Virus record (IMG/VR): IMGVR_UViG_3300025674_000113 | Location: 1-39,661 of that record | Length of the DNA stretch: 39,661 nt | Strand: one strand, 5' to 3' | Source of the DNA: a virus | Shown: in pieces, positions 1,518 to 39,504 of the stretch | Layout: every line of letters begins with the position of its first letter | Numbering within the stretch: the stretch's first letter is position 1 | Notes under the pieces: model-generated | What the model was told of the DNA's origin: nothing | The model's input: only the letters and a program-made list of their open reading frames with translations | Databases searched by the model: none | Made by a program: the position numbers and the translations under genes

Positions 1518-4175
1518 ATGTTTGAATTTGGAAATGCTTTAGAGGGAGACCCTCGTTTTAAATACTGGTTAAAAAAAGAATTTATTGAGAGGTCTCAATA
1601 CGAAAAATACCATAAGGTAAAGAGTGGGGATATAGTGGTAGATATAGGAGCCAGCATTGGCCCTTTTTTATATTCCATAAAAGATAGAAATCCCTCAAGA
1701 GTAATTGCTGTAGAACCCCTTAAAGCATATCAGGAAACTCTCTTGAAAAATTCTCGTGAAATAGCTGATGTAGCAGATTATATTTATCTAGCTATAGGAG
1801 AAAAAAATAAAGAAAAAATAGATTTAGAGTGGAGTTGCCACAAAGAACAAGTTTATACTACAACATTTAAATCTTTATTATCTTATAGTAACATAAAACA
1901 TATTGATTTTCTTAAAGTTGATTGTGAGGGTGGAGAATATTATATTTTTAATGAGGAAAATATTGATTGGATCAAAGAAAATGTAAAATATATAGCGGGA
2001 GAATTTCATTTAAATACTCCTCAAATGAAGGAATCTTTTAAAAAGGTTTATAATTTACTAAAGGAGAAAAACTTTGATTTTAAAATTGAATCTGTAGATG
2101 GAATTGGAATTAATACTCAAGCAGATAATGATTTAGAAAGTTTTGTCAACCATTATGAACAAGTCATACTTTATATTGACAATTTAAATATGAAAAAATT
2201 ACTTTTTATTACCCCTCACCTTTCCACAGGAGGGCTACCTCAATATCTTTATACTAAAATAAAAGAATTAAAGGATGATTATGAAATTCATTTAGTAGAA
2301 TGGGCTGATATCACGGGAGGGAAATTAGTAGTACAAAGGAATAAAATTCTTGAAATTCTAGATACTCCATATTTTCATACTCTTGGAGAACATAAAACCC
2401 ATCTTTTAGGTTTACTCTCATTAATCCAACCAGACATAGTTCATTTAGAGGAAATACCTGAAATGTTTATGTATGAGAATATTGCAGATGTTTTATATTC
2501 TAAAGATAGAAAATATTTTATAGTTGAAACCTCTCATGATTCCTCATTTGATATCTTAAATAAAAAATACTTCCCAGACAAGTTTATGCTGGTTTCTCAA
2601 TACCAGATTAATAAATTTTCAGAATTAGGTATTCCTTGTGAATTGGTAGAATATCCTATAGAATATGTTGAAAGACCTGATAGGGAGGAAGCTTTAAAAG
2701 AATTAGGATTAGATCCTAACAAAAAACATATTTTAAATATAGGGTTATTCACACCACGTAAAAATCAAGCTGAATTTTTTGAATATGCTAGGTCACTCCC
2801 ACAATATGAATTTCATTGTGTTGGAAATCAAGCAGATAACTTTAAAGATTATTGGGAGCCTCTAATGGAGAATAAACCCGATAATTTAACTTGGTGGGGA
2901 GAAAGAAGTGATGTTGAAAAGTTTTACCAAGCTATGGATTTGTTCTTGTTTACCTCTCGAGGTACAGAAAAAGATAAAGAAACAATGCCTCTAGTACTTC
3001 GTGAAGCTATTTCTTATCAAATCCCAACCTTACTATTTAAACTTCCAGTATACTTAGATTACTTTGATAAATTTGAGGGAGTTACATATCTAACATTTGA
3101 TCATTTTGAGGGTAATTGTAATCTTATTGATGAAACCTTATCCGAAGATATTGGAGAATCTCAACCCAAAAATGTGTTTATCGTATCGTGTTATCCATCG
3201 CATGATAGCGCAAAAAAAACAATAACAAACTGTTTAAAAGCGATTAAAGATGCGGGGTATGATATAATACTCACATCACATCTACCAATCCCACTCGAAT
3301 TACAAATTTATGCTAATTATTGTGTTTATGATAAGAAAAATATTCTAACTCATCATAACTTTTACAATAAATTTTGGGCAGAAAATAGTGAATATAAACT
3401 AGAAATTAACCTAAAGGAATATGATAATAACATATACCATGGTCCTGCAGTTTATACCAACTATTACAACGGGGCTTCTTTGGCACATAGTTTAGGATAT
3501 GATAATGCCATATTCTTAAATTATGATTATATATTAAAAGATACCCCATTTATAGAATGGGTTATAACACAACTAAATTCCTCTTCAGACTTTTATTTTG
3601 GTACCCACTATCCTCAAGAAGGTCCAAGTTTTTATACGTTCTTTTTTGGGGCTGATCTTAGGGAATATTTAAACACATTTCCAAGAATAAAAGATGAAAA
3701 AGATTATAATGGTATTGTAAAACGATATAATTCTCCCTCAAATGGTTTGGAAAATCTATACTACAATATTCTTAAAATTAACAATTTCAAAAATGTTTGG
3801 TTAGATGATTCTGAACCCTTTAATTCAGATATTAAAGATACCTTCGAACATGAAGAACATTCCCAAGTAGAATATTGTACTATTGTAGATACAAACGTAA
3901 AAGATACATTTGCTGTAATTATAAAAACAACAAATGTCATAGATTCAAGAGAAATAACCTACATTGTATATGAAGATAATGAAGAAATAAAAAAGGAAAC
4001 TATAAATATAACCTCTCCAACATTATATTATAGTTTAATAAATTATGATCCTAATAAAGAATACCAATTTTGGTGTTTTAAAAGTAAAAATAAAACAGGA
4101 ATATTTAACGTAGATTTAAAAAATCTATCAAGAGCAGGAAAATTAGAATTTAAAAATGAAAATTTGTCAAGTTAA
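1518..4175 (+). CDS. Fusion: FkbM-type methyltransferase + GT-B glycosyltransferase + GT-A-like module
   Basis: This 885-residue protein carries several enzyme modules. Residues about 35-175 match the FkbM SAM-dependent O-methyltransferase family: VDIGASIGPFLYSI (SAM-binding loop), AVEPLKAY, and FLKVDCEGGEY near residue 132. A second module starts at an internal Met (residue 225, MKKLLFITPHLSTGG) and reads as a GT4-like GT-B fold, with LNIGLFTPRKNQ near 406 and PLVLREAISYQIPTLLF near 495. A third module begins near residue 552 (NVFIVSCYPSHDSAKK) and looks GT-A-like, with AIFLNYDYIL near 664 as a possible metal-binding site. The last 110 residues look like a beta sandwich. It overlaps the next gene by 20 bases. 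The first two modules are well supported; the third is tentative. Confidence 0.8.
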   Translation: MFEFGNALEGDPRFKYWLKKEFIERSQYEKYHKVKSGDIVVDIGASIGPFLYSIKDRNPSRVIAVEPLKAYQETLLKNSREIADVADYIYLAIGEKNKEKIDLEWSCHKEQVYTTTFKSLLSYSNIKHIDFLKVDCEGGEYYIFNEENIDWIKENVKYIAGEFHLNTPQMKESFKKVYNLLKEKNFDFKIESVDGIGINTQADNDLESFVNHYEQVILYIDNLNMKKLLFITPHLSTGGLPQYLYTKIKELKDDYEIHLVEWADITGGKLVVQRNKILEILDTPYFHTLGEHKTHLLGLLSLIQPDIVHLEEIPEMFMYENIADVLYSKDRKYFIVETSHDSSFDILNKKYFPDKFMLVSQYQINKFSELGIPCELVEYPIEYVERPDREEALKELGLDPNKKHILNIGLFTPRKNQAEFFEYARSLPQYEFHCVGNQADNFKDYWEPLMENKPDNLTWWGERSDVEKFYQAMDLFLFTSRGTEKDKETMPLVLREAISYQIPTLLFKLPVYLDYFDKFEGVTYLTFDHFEGNCNLIDETLSEDIGESQPKNVFIVSCYPSHDSAKKTITNCLKAIKDAGYDIILTSHLPIPLELQIYANYCVYDKKNILTHHNFYNKFWAENSEYKLEINLKEYDNNIYHGPAVYTNYYNGASLAHSLGYDNAIFLNYDYILKDTPFIEWVITQLNSSSDFYFGTHYPQEGPSFYTFFFGADLREYLNTFPRIKDEKDYNGIVKRYNSPSNGLENLYYNILKINNFKNVWLDDSEPFNSDIKDTFEHEEHSQVEYCTIVDTNVKDTFAVIIKTTNVIDSREITYIVYEDNEEIKKETINITSPTLYYSLINYDPNKEYQFWCFKSKNKTGIFNVDLKNLSRAGKLEFKNENLSS

Positions 4176-5163
4176 TCCAGGTTGCGGAATTCCAGTCCCT
4201 CCACCTAATTGGGGAGCTATTGAAAAAATAGTATGGGAACTCACTCAAAATTTAAGGAAGCAGGGACATGAGGTAGATATTAAATTTGCTAATGAGATTA
4301 AACCTGGAGAATATGATATAGTTCATGTTCATGTTGCAAATTTAGCACTTAATTTAAGAGATCGTAATATCCCTTATGTGTTTCATTTGCATGATCATCA
4401 TGCTTATCATTGGGGAACTGATTCTCCATTATTTGAGGAAAATTCCCAATCAGTATCATCATCATTAACTAGTTTACTCCCAGCAAAGTACTTAGTAGAG
4501 TATTTTAATTTTCCTAAAGCTCAATATTTTTCACATGGGGTTAATACTAAAGAATTTTACCCTAAAAACTCTGCACCCCCATCTTCATCCTCAGGCCCTA
4601 ACTACCCATATAGCATGACTGAGCTTGGTTGGTATCATTTTCACCCCAAACTATTAATGATTGCTAATAATGGTTTAGTTAATGATCCTACTTTTGATAG
4701 AAAAGGATTTAAATATGGTTTAGGGTTAGCTATGATGAATGATTTAGAAATTACAATAGCTGGGCCTTCACATAATAAAAAGTTTTTTAATGAAAACCTA
4801 TGGATGTTATCTTACCCAAAACTTAATTTGGTTTTTGATACTCCTAATGATAAACTGTTAGAATTATACCACAACCATGATGTATTTGTTCATCCTACTA
4901 TGTTAGAAGCAGGGCATCCTAATTTAACAATGCTAGAAGCAGCAGCCGCTGGATTACCAATAATTGCTGATTGGGAGTTAGAAACTGATTTTCATGGTGC
5001 TTGGAGAGCTCCTCGTGATGTATTCGAAATGGATAGAGGTCTTAAAAATATAGGTGAAAATTGGGATTGGTATAAGGAAAATGTTTTAAACACAGCTAAA
5101 GAATTATCTTGGGAAAACCGAACAAAAGATTTAATACAAATTTATGAAAGATTCGTTAATTAA
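4156..5163 (+). CDS. GT4-like glycosyltransferase (GT-B fold)
   Basis: A 335-residue protein with a GT-B layout. The N-terminal Rossmann half begins MKICQVNPGCGIPVPPPNWG and continues with IEKIVWELTQNLRKQGHEV and YDIVHVHVAN, typical acceptor-side motifs of family GT4. The C-terminal half contains VFVHPTMLEAGHPNL and TMLEAAAAGLPII. The two Glu residues near 251 and 261 resemble the paired acidic residues that contact the nucleotide sugar in GT4 enzymes, but are spaced slightly wider than the usual EX7E. It should transfer a sugar from a nucleotide donor; donor and acceptor cannot be read. Twenty-base overlaps with both neighbours imply coupled translation. Confidence 0.85.
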   Translation: MKICQVNPGCGIPVPPPNWGAIEKIVWELTQNLRKQGHEVDIKFANEIKPGEYDIVHVHVANLALNLRDRNIPYVFHLHDHHAYHWGTDSPLFEENSQSVSSSLTSLLPAKYLVEYFNFPKAQYFSHGVNTKEFYPKNSAPPSSSSGPNYPYSMTELGWYHFHPKLLMIANNGLVNDPTFDRKGFKYGLGLAMMNDLEITIAGPSHNKKFFNENLWMLSYPKLNLVFDTPNDKLLELYHNHDVFVHPTMLEAGHPNLTMLEAAAAGLPIIADWELETDFHGAWRAPRDVFEMDRGLKNIGENWDWYKENVLNTAKELSWENRTKDLIQIYERFVN

Positions 5164-6331
5164 AGGATATAATAATTTAAAAAGATTGAATTTTACACCT
5201 AAAATTAAACCCAAAATTCATTTCCACTTTGTAAAGGGAGGATTTGTTGAAATATTAGGGGGCACCCCTTCTAAATTTCTAGTTCAGTTTTTTAATAAAA
5301 AGACAGAAGAAATAATTTATGAAGATACTCTTACAAATAATATGTGGTCTAAGGTTTCCCTAAAATATTTTATTGATTATGCTATTAAAGTAAAAGATTT
5401 AAATACAGGAGAAGAAATTGTCAATTATATGAATCTAAAAGACAAACGGGTTTTTATAACTTTAGATTCATCAGCAATAGGGGATACTTTAGCTTGGTTT
5501 CCTTATATAGAGGAATTTAGAAAAAAACATAAATGTCAAATTATATGTTCTACTTTTCACAGTAGTTGGTTTGAAAGCGAATATCCTGAAATTGAATTTG
5601 TAAAACCTGGTACTGTGGTTGAAAATTTGTATGCGATGTATACTATTGGATGGTATTATGATGAAGATAAAGTAAACTTTAATCACCACCCTCAAGATTT
5701 TAGAAAATTTCCATTACAAGAAACAGCAACCCAAATACTTGGAATGCCTTATAAAGAGATAAAACCAAAACTATCTTTTAAAAACACAGGACCTACCATT
5801 GAAGGAAAATATGTAGTTATAGCTCCTCATGCTTCGGCTCATGCTAAATATTGGAATAGACCAAATGGTTGGCAGGAAATAGTTGATTACCTAAATAAAG
5901 AGGGTTATAAAGTAGTAATGATTACTAAAGAAAAATTAGGTGATCCATGGCATGATTCTAAACTAGGAGGGACTTTAAAAGGGGTAATTGATAAAACAGG
6001 AGATTTCCCCTTAGAAGATAGAGCTAATGATATAATGAATGCTGAATTTTTTATAGGGGTAGGAAGTGGATTAAGCTGGTTAAGCTGGGCTTTAGGAACT
6101 AAAACCATTCTAATTTCAGGATTTAGTGAAGAATATACAGAATTTCAAGAATGTGAAAGAATTGCAGCCCCCATATACAAATGTAGGGGATGTTTTAATA
6201 AATCTAAATTAGATGCAGGGGATTGGGAATGGTGTCCTGTAAATAAAAATACTCCTCAACAGTTTGAATGTACTAAATCTATTTCTCCTGAAACAGTAAT
6301 AGAATCTATTGAAAGAATAAGAAAAACTTAA
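5144..6331 (+). CDS. TibC/Aah-family protein O-heptosyltransferase (GT9-like) with cysteine metal finger
   Basis: A 395-residue protein that closely follows the autotransporter O-heptosyltransferase family (Aah/TibC). That family attaches heptose from ADP-heptose to Ser residues of autotransporter adhesins. Visible family marks: a beta-rich N-terminal domain (residues 1-100), the GT9-type loop LDSSAIGDTLAWFPYIEEF near 108, APHASAHAKYWN near 229-239, GVGSGLSWLSWALGT near 306, ISGFSEEYTEF, and a C-terminal cysteine finger (Cys347, Cys350, Cys364, Cys376) within CRGC, WCPVN and FECTK. TibC binds iron at an equivalent finger. All key elements appear intact. The acceptor here is unknown; a Ser/Thr-rich virion or host surface protein is my inference. 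It overlaps the previous gene by 20 bases. Confidence 0.88.
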   Translation: MKDSLIKGYNNLKRLNFTPKIKPKIHFHFVKGGFVEILGGTPSKFLVQFFNKKTEEIIYEDTLTNNMWSKVSLKYFIDYAIKVKDLNTGEEIVNYMNLKDKRVFITLDSSAIGDTLAWFPYIEEFRKKHKCQIICSTFHSSWFESEYPEIEFVKPGTVVENLYAMYTIGWYYDEDKVNFNHHPQDFRKFPLQETATQILGMPYKEIKPKLSFKNTGPTIEGKYVVIAPHASAHAKYWNRPNGWQEIVDYLNKEGYKVVMITKEKLGDPWHDSKLGGTLKGVIDKTGDFPLEDRANDIMNAEFFIGVGSGLSWLSWALGTKTILISGFSEEYTEFQECERIAAPIYKCRGCFNKSKLDAGDWEWCPVNKNTPQQFECTKSISPETVIESIERIRKT

Positions 6332-34005: not shown

Positions 34006-34098
34006 TCAGCAAATAGGTTGATCATTCACAGCTACACCTTCTGATACAGCACAACTAGCCAATGTTAATAATACTACAAATGCAAAAATCTTTTTCAT
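34006..34098 (-). CDS. Tiny lipoprotein on the minus strand, possibly truncated by TGA
   Basis: On the minus strand an ATG at 34098 opens a 30-residue frame beginning MKKIFAFVVLLTLASC, a textbook lipoprotein signal: two Lys, a hydrophobic core and the lipobox LASC with Cys16. The mature part would be only 15 residues, ending PIC before TGA (34006-34008). If the TGA is passed, the frame stays open for 17 more codons (QDPNC, then TNYGIHDHIFFT) to a second TGA at 33952. The stop may therefore be a nonsense mutation (for example TGG to TGA) or a sequencing error. It is the only minus-strand gene I support. Phage lipoproteins often block superinfection, as T5 Llp does, but this role is inference. 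Confidence 0.55.
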   Translation of the reverse strand: MKKIFAFVVLLTLASCAVSEGVAVNDQPIC

Positions 34099-34143
34099 AT
34101 GTTTGATTTTAATTATTAATAATTTGGCGATTATACATATTAA

Positions 34144-34181
34144 CGTCATACGCGTCATCATAAAGTTATAAAAGACGTCAT
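34144..34181 (+). repeat. Three CGTCAT direct repeats between divergent genes
   Basis: CGTCAT at 34144-34149, 34153-34158 and 34176-34181, between the minus-strand lipoprotein start and the + strand promoter at 34188. The placement suggests binding sites for a regulator of one or both genes. Confidence 0.5.
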
Positions 34182-34978: not shown

Positions 34979-35518
34979 ATGGGTAGTTACGGATTTATCA
35001 AAGAAAGTTGTATTGGTCACAGTCGAGAGGTTGTTGAAGAGCATATTGCAAAACTCCAACCACTCAATTATAACCAATTTCGTTGGTGGCGTACTCATAC
35101 TGACAATGTTAAACCACTTGGCAAACGTGCTCCTCTCAAAGACCGAATTGTAAATGGTGATTTTGAACCATCATCTTATTTTTGGCAAGCTCAATTAGCT
35201 TTACACAAAGCAAAAACAAAAGTTGACTTACATAAAGATGATTCTCAAACTCAATATGAAAAATTAAGATTGGACCTTGCTAGATACAGAAAATTGATGG
35301 CAGATTTTCAAAAAGAAGAAAAAGAAAGATATCAAGCTATATTTGATGCTTTTACTTCTGCATATAAAATATCCCATCAAGAACTTGAAGATGATTTTTT
35401 AAATTGGTCTGGAGATTTACTTTCATTTTATTATAAAGCTGAAGGGTCTTATAGGAAGACACCTGCTGAAGTTCGAAAACGTAAACGACTTAATAAACCT
35501 TTAGAAGAAAAACAATGA
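34979..35518 (+). CDS. Hypothetical helical protein
   Basis: A 179-residue protein. The N-terminal part contains RWWRTHTDNVKPLGKRAPLK. The middle is long helix (EKLRLDLARYRKLMADFQKE). The C-terminus is strongly basic (TPAEVRKRKRLNKPLEEK), suggesting contact with nucleic acid or another acidic partner. No family is recognised. Its stop overlaps the start of the T9SS-type gene (ATGA at 35515-35518), so the two are translationally coupled. Confidence 0.6.
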   Translation: MGSYGFIKESCIGHSREVVEEHIAKLQPLNYNQFRWWRTHTDNVKPLGKRAPLKDRIVNGDFEPSSYFWQAQLALHKAKTKVDLHKDDSQTQYEKLRLDLARYRKLMADFQKEEKERYQAIFDAFTSAYKISHQELEDDFLNWSGDLLSFYYKAEGSYRKTPAEVRKRKRLNKPLEEKQ

Positions 35519-36330
35519 AATATTTTTATTTACTAGTTCTTTTATTTGCATTTAATTTTACATTTTCTCAAACACTCTCAGATAGTATTACGGTTTGTGA
35601 GGGAAATAGTGTAGATTATAAGGCTTTTAATCCCTCTGCTGTAAGTTGGGAATGGGGGTTTGAGGGAGGAGTTCCTGACACCTCAACACAACAAAACCCT
35701 CAAAACATTAATTACCCCACAGTAGGGGAATTTATAACTTTTTGTATTTCTACCTTCAATAATGGAGATAAGGATACAAATTATTTAAAGGTTAAAGTTA
35801 GAACTGATTTACTCGATTCTATCGATCTAAGTGATACTATAATGTGTGAGGGGGGTGGTTTAACATTGGATGCTGGTTTTGATGATTCTAATCCTAGAAT
35901 TAATTATTTATGGACTTCACCCACTCTCAGTATTGATGATATTTTTGTTGAAACCAAAACCCTACAAGTAGATAAACCTGGACTCTATAATATCAGAGTT
36001 TTTACTGCTTGTAACTTTGTGGAAAAGACTATAGAGGTAAAAGGAACTCAATGTAGTTCAATTATTCATATTCCAAATGCTTTTACCCCTGAGGGGAATG
36101 GTTTAAATGAGACTTATTCTGTTTATGTAGGAGAACATAAAACTTTTAATTTAAGAATTTTTAATAGGTGGGGTGAAAAAATTTATGAAACTAATAACCC
36201 CAACTTTAGATGGAATGGAAATTATAAAAATGTTCCTGTTCAACCAGGGGCATATGTTGTTGTTGTAGAAGTTTCTACTGAGAGCTTTGTTACTCAAAGA
36301 TATATGAGTACCGTTAATGTAATAAGATAA
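35515..36330 (+). CDS. Secreted PKD/Ig-like protein with T9SS C-terminal domain (CHU_C, gliding-motility-associated type)
   Basis: A 271-residue protein with a Sec signal peptide, KYFYLLVLLFAFNFTFSQ, likely cut before Gln19 as is common in flavobacteria. Residues 25-95 form a PKD-like domain (SVDYKAFNPSAVSWEWGFEG, TVGEFITFC). Residues 105-175 are a second Ig-like unit. Residues 184-271 read as the type B T9SS sorting domain (CHU_C): IPNAFTPEGNGLNETYSVY, LRIFNRWGEKIYET, WNGNYKNVPVQPGAYVVVVE, ending STVNVIR. The consensus FTPNGDGIND is slightly degenerate. The host T9SS should carry it to the cell surface or medium. It is probably made during infection to alter the host surface, for example to exclude other phages, which is inference. 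Confidence 0.88.
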   Translation: MKYFYLLVLLFAFNFTFSQTLSDSITVCEGNSVDYKAFNPSAVSWEWGFEGGVPDTSTQQNPQNINYPTVGEFITFCISTFNNGDKDTNYLKVKVRTDLLDSIDLSDTIMCEGGGLTLDAGFDDSNPRINYLWTSPTLSIDDIFVETKTLQVDKPGLYNIRVFTACNFVEKTIEVKGTQCSSIIHIPNAFTPEGNGLNETYSVYVGEHKTFNLRIFNRWGEKIYETNNPNFRWNGNYKNVPVQPGAYVVVVEVSTESFVTQRYMSTVNVIR

Positions 36331-36332
36331 AA

Positions 36333-36665
36333 ATGAGTTTAGATTTAGATAAATTAACAAAAAATCTAAAAAAAGCACTAGACAGTATGACTCAAGAAGA
36401 TTGGGATGAGTTTAATGCTAAAATAGATGAGGGGAAAGAGGATGTTCCAATGGGGTGGATCAGTATTGATGATTTTTTACCTGCATGGATGGGTGAAGAT
36501 GTATGGAAAGGGTATTCCACATATAAAGTTAAATATGAGGATGGTACTGAGGATGAATCATTTGTTACTGACCACACCACGTGGTATTATCGAGTTAAAG
36601 ATGATGGGATTACCCATTGGTATAACGATGGTAGGATTAAAAGAGGTTATCCTAATAATAGGTAA
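36333..36665 (+). CDS. DUF551-like hypothetical protein
   Basis: A 110-residue protein. From residue 40 it follows the DUF551 pattern seen in many phage proteins: MGWISIDDFLPAWMGEDVWK near the start, a central beta-rich stretch, and DGITHWYNDGRIKRGYP near the end (DUF551 typically has WI-LP, then VTHWMPLP). The N-terminal 35 residues are an added charged helix. Function of the family is unknown. It starts two bases after the T9SS-type gene. Confidence 0.65.
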   Translation: MSLDLDKLTKNLKKALDSMTQEDWDEFNAKIDEGKEDVPMGWISIDDFLPAWMGEDVWKGYSTYKVKYEDGTEDESFVTDHTTWYYRVKDDGITHWYNDGRIKRGYPNNR

Positions 36666-36668
36666 GTT

Positions 36669-36959
36669 ATGAGTAAAGAAAAACTTGAAAAAAAGTATAT
36701 TTTATCAATGTGTGTTGACATATTTGAGAAGGTTATAAATGATGAAGAAAGGGCTTATCTTGAAGTTAGAACAACCCATCCTCTCCCTGCAGATAAAATG
36801 TGTAATATATTAATATCTGCCTTAACAATGGTTATCCGAGGATGTGATTATTCAGATATAGATTTTAAATCTCATGATTTGGTAAAGGAATCTATATCTA
36901 AATTAACTGAACTTTATACTGATCCCTTAGAATTTAATGATGTTAAATTGCACTCTTAA
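36669..36959 (+). CDS. Small hypothetical protein
   Basis: A 96-residue, mostly helical protein with CVDIFEKVINDEERAYLEVR and CNILISALTMVIRGCDYSDI. No motif is recognised and there is no membrane segment or signal peptide. It is last in the run that starts at 34243. A promoter-like site follows its stop. Confidence 0.55.
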   Translation: MSKEKLEKKYILSMCVDIFEKVINDEERAYLEVRTTHPLPADKMCNILISALTMVIRGCDYSDIDFKSHDLVKESISKLTELYTDPLEFNDVKLHS

Positions 36960-37118: not shown

Positions 37119-37898
37119 ATGAAAGTATCCCACGAGTTTCCTTTTTATCTCTTAAATATAAGTCTTAAGTATAATGACTACCAATACTGCCTCCCCCACC
37201 TCTTAGATAAAGAACCCGAATATGCTGAGTTTTTTAAGAAATATAAAAAAGATGGAGGGTATATTATAATGGATAACTCACTCCATGAATTGGGGGAAGC
37301 ATATAATGAAAATAGGTTGTTGTATTGGATTGAAGAACTAAAACCTAATGAATTTATTGTTCCTGATGTGTGGGAAAACTGTAATGCTTCTATAGCAAAT
37401 GCTATAACATGGTCAGAGAAAAAACTCCCAGAGGGAGTAGAAAGGGTAGCAGTAGTGCAAGCTAAAAACATTGATGAAGCTACTCATTGTTATCAGACAT
37501 ATAAAAATCGAGGTTATAAGAAAATAGCTTTTTCATATGGAGCAGAATATTATAACAACATAGTAAAACATTACAACAGAGATTTAGGAAAAGCTATGGG
37601 TAGGATTCAAGTAATATTTAGACTCCTTAATGAAAATGTTATCTCTCCCAATGACAGAGTACACCTCTTGGGATGCTCAGTCCCTCAAGAATTTAAATGG
37701 TATGATAAACTTAGTTGTATAGAATCTATTGATACATCAAATCCTATTATGGCTACTATTGATGGTATTAGATATGAAGATGGGGGATTACAACATAAAC
37801 CTAAATCTAACATTCAAGACAATTTTTATGAATTTGATATTGATACTTTCTTGTTAGACTTTAACTTAAAGAAATTTAGGAAAATAAATAATTTATAA
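37119..37898 (+). CDS. TGT-fold enzyme, probable DpdA-like DNA 7-deazaguanine transglycosylase
   Basis: A 259-residue protein with the barrel-type motif order of tRNA-guanine transglycosylases: GGYIIMDNSLHELGEA (Asp52, TGT nucleobase-pocket position), NEFIVPDVWENCNASIANAI (Asp83), VERVAVVQAKNIDEA (Gln114), KKIAFSYG, DRVHLLGCSVPQEF, and IESIDTSNPIMATIDGIRY, where Asp205 matches the catalytic Asp of TGTs. It is much shorter than bacterial TGT (about 375 residues) and shows no C-terminal zinc cysteines, as in phage DpdA proteins. These swap guanine in DNA for a 7-deazaguanine base. The nearby QueC-like gene supports this over a tRNA substrate. Fold is likely; substrate is inferred. Confidence 0.72.
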   Translation: MKVSHEFPFYLLNISLKYNDYQYCLPHLLDKEPEYAEFFKKYKKDGGYIIMDNSLHELGEAYNENRLLYWIEELKPNEFIVPDVWENCNASIANAITWSEKKLPEGVERVAVVQAKNIDEATHCYQTYKNRGYKKIAFSYGAEYYNNIVKHYNRDLGKAMGRIQVIFRLLNENVISPNDRVHLLGCSVPQEFKWYDKLSCIESIDTSNPIMATIDGIRYEDGGLQHKPKSNIQDNFYEFDIDTFLLDFNLKKFRKINNL

Positions 37899-38676: not shown

Positions 38677-39504
38677 ATGCAATTAGAATTAGATTTTAAC
38701 AAAGGAAAACATTGTGTAATTAGCCTGAGTGGGGGGATGGACTCTTCAACTTTACTACTTAGAGCATTAAAAGAATTCGAAACAGTGACTGCTTTAAGTT
38801 TTGATTACGGTCAAAAACACCGAGTAGAATTAGAAAGAGCTCAATCATTAATTGAATACCTTAAATCTAAAGGCCATAATGTGACTTATGAGGTAATTGA
38901 ATTAAAAGGATTAGTAAATCTACTTAACTCTGCTTTAGTAACCGGAGGTGATGATGTACCAGAAGGTCATTATGAAGAAGATAATATGAAAGCTACTGTT
39001 GTTCCTAATCGTAATAAAATATTTACTTCATTAACTCAAGCAGTTGCTTTATCAGTTGCAAATAGAACTGGAGAAAATACAGATATTGCTTTAGGAGTGC
39101 ACGCGGGGGATCATCAAGTTTATAAAGATTGCAGACAAGAATTTCGTGATGCCGATGATGCCGCTTTTAGAGAAGGTAACTGGGATCATGAAAAAGTAGG
39201 TTATTGGACACCTTACTTAAAAACTGATAAGTTTGGAATCTTACAAGATGGTGAAGTATTATGTGATGAATTAGGATTAGAATTTGACGAAGTATACAAA
39301 AGAACTAATACTTCCTATAAACCCTATCCTAGTGGTAATAGTGACTATAAATCAGCATCAAGTGTTGAACGTGTAGAAGCTTTTATTAAACTTGGTCGTC
39401 CTGATCCCGTAGTTTATGAAGATGAAAATGGTATTGCTCCATGGGATAAAGTAGTATCTCATGTAACTAAAACCATTGAAGATTATAAACTAGCTAATGC
39501 TTAA
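38677..39504 (+). CDS. queC: QueC-like 7-cyano-7-deazaguanine (preQ0) synthase lacking the zinc cysteines
   Basis: A 275-residue QueC-family enzyme. The PP-loop SLSGGMDSSTLLL (residues 16-28), VVPNRNKIFTSLTQAVAL, ALGVHAGDHQVYKDCRQEF and the ending SSVERVEAFIKLGRPDP are all recognisable. QueC converts 7-carboxy-7-deazaguanine to preQ0 with ATP and ammonia. The family's four zinc-binding Cys (SCY, then CGxCxxC before the ER of the ending) are replaced here by Ser213, Asp223, Ser226 and Ser229 with spacing kept. The rest is well conserved, so the gene is not simply decayed. It may still make preQ0, or the variant may do related chemistry. The TGT/DpdA-like gene nearby supports a DNA-modification role. 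Confidence 0.87.
   Translation: MQLELDFNKGKHCVISLSGGMDSSTLLLRALKEFETVTALSFDYGQKHRVELERAQSLIEYLKSKGHNVTYEVIELKGLVNLLNSALVTGGDDVPEGHYEEDNMKATVVPNRNKIFTSLTQAVALSVANRTGENTDIALGVHAGDHQVYKDCRQEFRDADDAAFREGNWDHEKVGYWTPYLKTDKFGILQDGEVLCDELGLEFDEVYKRTNTSYKPYPSGNSDYKSASSVERVEAFIKLGRPDPVVYEDENGIAPWDKVVSHVTKTIEDYKLANA

Follow-up and report, generated by a model that had tools for sequence, protein, structure and literature searches.

The gene at positions 35515-36330 of the window, by which we mean the whole stretch of DNA analysed, a complete virus record of 39,661 bases, raises the question of whether a virus can own a cargo protein of the bacterial type IX secretion system (T9SS) and to what end. In our reading, to which we give a probability of about 0.6, it is an accessory phage gene of ancient bacterial kinship, encoding a minimal type B cargo that would be displayed to mask or displace receptors. 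The closest isolated phage is Flavobacterium phage vB_FspM_immuto_2-6A (hereafter immuto; NC_055915, 160 kb, Immutovirus, host Flavobacterium sp. LMO8). Counterparts of its sheath, tube, hub, tape measure, ssDNA-binding protein, recombinase, exonuclease, DnaB, both RNR subunits, holin and QueC could be found on the contig, most of them in shared order and with identities of 27-75%, mostly 40-75%. Judged by these counterparts, the contig is approximately one quarter of an Immutovirus-like myophage genome, and the kinship with immuto together with the T9SS signal points to a Bacteroidota host. No near-identical phages were present in INPHARED. Homologues of DpdA (Table 1) and of QueC (38677-39504) occur in the window, which suggests 7-deazaguanine modification of the phage DNA. 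At 1518-6331, near the tail genes, glycosyltransferase genes form a run that includes one with an FkbM methyltransferase domain and a heptosyltransferase-like (GT9) one.

The original prediction had placed the gene in an ATGA overlap with its upstream neighbour and had assigned to its product a Sec signal peptide, PKD/Ig-like domains and a C-terminal sorting signal of the CHU_C (type B) kind. Coordinates, strand and overlap were right: the TGA of the upstream ORF overlays the ATG of the cargo gene, and the next ORF begins 2 bp after its end. Profile searches bore out the sorting signal. The last ~88 residues of the 271-aa product matched PF13585 (CHU_C) with 56.3 bits (E 3.6e-15; curated cut-off 27 bits), and the NCBIfam type B model TIGR04131 matched with 44.3 bits (E 1.5e-11; curated cut-off 35 bits). 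As both scores exceed their cut-offs, the match is not due to chance. The type A model TIGR04183, which had been named for the same check, stayed below its cut-off (15.5 against 23 bits), and a type A identity was rejected on this score. The N-terminus (MKYFYLLVLLFAFNFTFSQ) reads directly as a Bacteroidota-type Sec signal peptide without a lipobox cysteine, in agreement with the prediction, and also passes a simple hydrophobicity rule; the mature protein would comprise ~252 aa. The PKD match in Pfam is sub-threshold on its own (16.2 against 23.5 bits), and the PKD assignment is backed by the ~45-54% identity of residues 20-95 to the equivalent domain of a conserved cellular family, by the PKD score of the homologue in phage contig L222 (21.6 bits) and by an all-beta structural model. 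Cysteines 28, 77, 111, 166 and 180 are invariant in an alignment of five sequences, a pattern that suits an exported protein.

Table 1. Features of the cargo gene, its parts and its flanks in the window
Feature	Coordinates	Strand	Evidence
Upstream operon gene, unknown function, conserved in immuto-like phages	34979..35518	+	139 relatives in IMG/VR
Type IX secretion type B cargo gene, 271 aa	35515..36330	+	Profile matches, L222 homologue, cellular family
Sec signal peptide, residues 1-19, cleavage site approximate	35515..35571	+	Direct reading, alignment with L222 and cellular family
PKD-like domain, residues 20-97	35572..35805	+	Sub-threshold Pfam match, cellular-family identity, beta-rich model
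Ig-like domain, residues 98-178	35806..36048	+	Alignment
CHU_C / type B T9SS sorting domain, residues 184-271	36064..36327	+	PF13585, TIGR04131
Two small ORFs (36333-36665 and 36669-36959), rest of variable site	36333..36959	+	
Immuto gp206 homologue, annotated DNA guanine transglycosylase DpdA; right flank	37119..37898	+	phrog_19058

The AlphaFold model of the window protein was all-beta and of medium confidence (pLDDT 70.7, pTM 0.45); its quality being middling, fold matches were used solely as a consistency check. The best PDB matches were the Ig-like regions of the grappling hook protein GhpA of Aureispira, whose C-terminus resembles the window protein at the sequence level as well (E 2.2e-7). 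Matches in BFVD included two 'gliding-motility-associated C-terminal domain' proteins of uncultured Caudovirales phages, indicating that such phage proteins are already in databases under that name. The predicted fold agrees with a secreted Ig-like protein.

The cargo gene is accessory and occupies a variable site between two phage genes, in a variable region past the replication and lysis genes. Among 67 fetched relatives holding both the upstream gene and the DpdA-like gene, the two are at most 150 bp apart in 34, and other small genes separate them in the rest. In the closest relatives (L011-L013), other shared proteins of which are up to 99% identical, the site contains a single unrelated ORF of 94 aa. 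The two small ORFs that fill the rest of the site in the window had no relatives among the fetched loci. A 5'-truncated CHU_C gene could be seen ~2.9 kb upstream of the DpdA-like gene in L284, so the region may have gained such genes at least twice. A small lipoprotein-like ORF (MKKIFAFVVLLTLASC...) is present on the minus strand at 34006-34161, opposite to the operon, and ORFs resembling it are found at the equivalent place in L011, L013 and L035.

Host contamination, an assembly chimera or a neutral passenger gene would fit the finding that the exact gene occurred on one contig only and that the nearest full-length non-phage relatives, among the matches listed, are cellular. The ATGA overlap within a phage operon speaks against such an origin, as does the composition of the gene (GC 0.322, GC3 0.195), which is phage-like and resembles the rest of the window (GC 0.324). 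The homologue in L222 is still intact and falls into a deep separate clade. Contamination and chimerism were rejected because of the operon structure, the composition, the phage homologue and the tree, and we regard this explanation as the least probable of those considered. The prediction that the gene is no stray host fragment thus held, the flanking genes being common to relatives with and without the gene and a homologue being present in a second phage. The results support the reading as a true phage gene encoding T9SS type B cargo, situated inside a phage operon.

That second phage contig, L222, is immuto-like (it matches immuto gp181-183) and encodes a 290-aa homologue of equally short architecture, scoring 48.6 bits with TIGR04131. 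The two proteins are ~43% identical and the pair is saturated; the gene in L222 sits elsewhere, among glycosyltransferase-like genes. When isolated phages were searched by tblastn with the window protein, only its C-terminal part was matched, in two uncultured phage records of ~635-640 kb and in one 4 kb record. The best full-length non-phage relatives among the matches listed, beyond which a closer cellular relative may exist, were ~350-aa proteins of the order SP-PKD-Ig-Ig-CHU_C. This family was found in at least about 30 of 70 genomes of one Bacteroidota family (L119-L122, L199-L218), the MAGs being labelled Flavobacteriales, Bacteroidetes, Bacteroidia and, once, Chitinophaga pinensis. It shares its domain order with the phage protein and 36-42% identity over the PKD-Ig part, but has one more Ig repeat; in the alignment, the phage form is devoid of exactly the second Ig repeat. 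Unlike the phage gene, the bacterial gene is chromosomal: in L119, L121 and L122 it has a DNA-polymerase-IV-like gene on one side and, on the other, a TPR gene, behind which comes a trigger-factor-like gene (the polymerase and trigger-factor labels were given by sequence reading).

Phylogenetic analysis placed the window protein and the L222 homologue in one clade (support 100/99), separate from 22 cellular sequences. The exact relation of this clade to the cellular family is uncertain, because the branches of the tree are long. From the sequences, the gene looks like an old acquisition retained by phages rather than a recent passenger. A viral scan with the PKD-Ig part alone gave only weak, short matches in the PKD region, and L222 was not among them. 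As L222 was found via the CHU_C alignment, absence from such scans is weak evidence.

CHU_C domains, which the prediction proposed to look for in other phage genomes, were encoded by at least 323 IMG/VR stretches in an alignment-based scan, duplicates and host DNA still being in this count. Of 50 related phage records that had been gathered via other genes, four had CHU_C over its cut-off. A type A sorting domain was present in 6/45 of those records, isolate immuto included, and in three of five contigs chosen for CHU_C. The immuto protein concerned, gp015, has a signal peptide and a TIGR04183 score of 44.8 bits (cut-off 23), and the T9SS signal is absent from its annotation. Inspection of 54 CHU_C loci yielded 51 ORFs with a complete 5' end, 50 of which passed the simple signal-peptide rule; the single failing ORF was also signal-peptide-like by eye. 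As background, 45 of 204 neighbouring ORFs with 150 aa or more (22%) passed this rule. The CHU_C core motifs were kept in the phage copies. That signal peptide and sorting domain are so regularly paired favours secretion over a role in the virion.

A virion decoration or tail protein, in which the Ig and CHU_C folds would be structural instead of a secretion signal, has in its favour that Ig-like domains are frequent on virions and that a larger CHU_C protein is encoded between tail tube and baseplate hub genes in four relatives. The tail-adjacent ORFs, however, carry signal peptides like the others, and the window protein has no PHROG match, is encoded far from the tail module and is homologous to a cellular exported protein. 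A tail fibre or virion identity was rejected mainly on account of the signal peptide, and also for the missing PHROG match and the non-structural position; we consider it highly improbable.

Several further arrangements of exported phage proteins could be observed. The tail-module CHU_C protein of the four relatives (L108-L111; records G007, G011, G014 and G037) comprises 650-750 aa with a signal peptide, and the same kind of protein is found in L227, L268, L273, L274 and L282. Consecutive signal-peptide Ig-like genes, two to three per run, occur at L247:2749-5378, L229:2383-4131, L262:3598-5318, L265:2821-5375 and L241:17-813. In these runs CHU_C is restricted to the last gene, and several of the preceding products end in a PIxHN-like motif; the run in L241 is apparently a split form of the tail-module protein. 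A signal-peptide-rich cassette after the RNR genes is present in L094:9935-16409 (immuto gp012-gp019), L112, L113 and L114, and cassettes of this type encode C-type lectin, cohesin and dockerin-like domains with a type A T9SS domain, as well as unassigned exported proteins. Another recurrent unit is a ~700-1250-aa type A protein followed, after a short gap or with an overlap, by a ~355-aa predicted outer-membrane barrel, both with signal peptides (L116:32-2354 and loci L300-L373); in L116 this pair is located immediately upstream of the lysis genes.

The ~355-aa barrel family comprises 74 IMG/VR loci. A type A domain was also present in 42 of 43 barrel-bearing records checked, and the large ORF ended at the barrel start in 29/35 loci inspected. 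Fold comparison (model pLDDT 67) gave generic barrel matches only (porins, autotransporter barrels, FadL) and no PorV- or PorP-specific kinship. The barrel is a possible phage-encoded cargo partner; the family is absent from the window.

Secretion of known type B cargo does not depend on PorV and requires a barrel of the PorP/SprF family, by which the cargo is retained on the surface, probably uncleaved (PMC10202324, PMC9143113). In bacteria the cargo gene is usually clustered with that of its PorP/SprF partner (PMC10202324), and specificity between cargo and barrel is thought to exist (PMC9143113). The PorP/SprF model TIGR03519 was matched in 0/50 viral records and fired in 20/20 cellular genomes used as a control; no PorP/SprF-like ORF was recognised among the ORFs of the contig, which is a partial genome. 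Candidate hosts have several to ~20 PorP-like genes each. As PorP/SprF was not found in the viral records searched, export presupposes a compatible host barrel, and the phage probably relies on one. To the signals, phage ownership, accessory position and bacterial relative computed here, the steps after translation are added by extrapolation from known type B cargo. The cargo would be translated within the operon alongside its upstream neighbour and exported to the periplasm by Sec. The host T9SS (SprA/Sov), with a host PorP/SprF-family barrel recognising the CHU_C region, would then carry it over the outer membrane, and the host barrel would keep the uncleaved cargo on the surface. In GFP-fusion work, type B export apparently took more than 200 residues (PMC10202324), a tight fit for a mature protein of 252 residues. 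This counts against our reading, as do the want of a recognised PorP/SprF gene next to the cargo gene and the occurrence of the exact gene on a single contig. With these points included, the window protein is, by analogy, probably a surface-displayed type B cargo.

The same export signals might instead leave the cargo stuck in the periplasm for want of a matching PorP/SprF barrel, where it would jam the T9SS or stress the envelope before lysis. The absence of PorP/SprF from the viral records and the presumed cargo specificity of these barrels would fit such an effect, but candidate hosts have several PorP-like genes or more, and the conservation of the CHU_C core motifs in phage copies is what would be expected of a working signal. 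We therefore judge jamming unlikely.

As to the purpose of surface display, Flavobacterium columnare becomes phage-resistant through gld/spr mutations (PMC9233685), and a link between gliding proteins and adsorption exists in Cellulophaga baltica (PMC13288928). Because of these links, receptor masking or displacement is the most economical purpose: the infected cell would display a protein akin to, but shorter than, a bacterial surface protein and thereby mask or displace T9SS-dependent phage receptors. Superinfection exclusion as the benefit of this display is put forward tentatively, by analogy. With the export route unchanged, the cargo might alternatively be an adhesion or lifestyle factor, making the cell stick to particles, surfaces or other cells, or altering its gliding. 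GhpA, the best solved relative, is an adhesive surface protein, gliding and adhesion proteins have the PKD/Ig plus CHU_C layout, and C-type lectin, cohesin and SprB-repeat proteins are encoded by related phages. The short mature protein, however, has no recognised ligand-binding domain, and an adhesive purpose appears doubtful, though less so than jamming. A broader version of receptor masking, by which Bacteroidota phages would systematically remodel the host surface through the host T9SS with recurrent, phage-adapted families of type A and type B cargo displayed during infection, some of them coupled to an outer-membrane barrel of the phage, and the window protein would be a decoy competing for the PorP/SprF anchor and so removing or hiding the receptor, appears similarly doubtful.

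For some flavobacterial phages, T9SS-dependent surface proteins act as receptor determinants, to which phages apparently respond by routing proteins of their own through the T9SS. The comparison turns an oddity into a recurrent, testable class with hundreds of viral sequences, several cargo families and a traceable cellular relative. An isolated pair, immuto and Flavobacterium sp. LMO8, is at hand, and gp015 of this phage bears a T9SS signal. A clean question that the type B case further raises is which PorP/SprF barrel of the host a phage cargo uses.

Type B proteins such as SprB of Flavobacterium johnsoniae and PG1035 of Porphyromonas gingivalis share with the window protein a signal peptide, an Ig/PKD-type body and a C-terminal CHU_C domain; the window protein differs in being phage-encoded, small and without a recognised PorP/SprF gene beside its own. 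The statement in the original prediction that no phage T9SS effector had been described did not stand, since phage T9SS cargo is already published (PMC7468147, PMC6949934). Cryophage (2020) encodes three type A cargo proteins, whose genes vary between phage variants and for which its authors proposed T9SS hijacking and superinfection exclusion (PMC7468147). It resembles the present case in encoding accessory products with T9SS signals that vary among related phages, but its type A signals are found on endoglucanase, GH39 and PA14 proteins (PMC7468147), whereas the window protein has a type B signal, a non-enzymatic Ig-like body and a traceable cellular relative. ORFs with T9SS sorting domains were also reported in crAss-like phages (2019), there, unlike the window gene, in a BACON context, in gut phages and close to head genes (PMC6949934). 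Immuto gp015 likewise combines a signal peptide with a T9SS sorting domain, but its signal is of type A, its body is of the cohesin type and its gene lies at another genome site. In the open-access literature searched, no description of a type B phage cargo, or of a cellular source for one, was found. Phage T9SS cargo is thus already known in principle, and what is added here is the type B form with a cellular relative.
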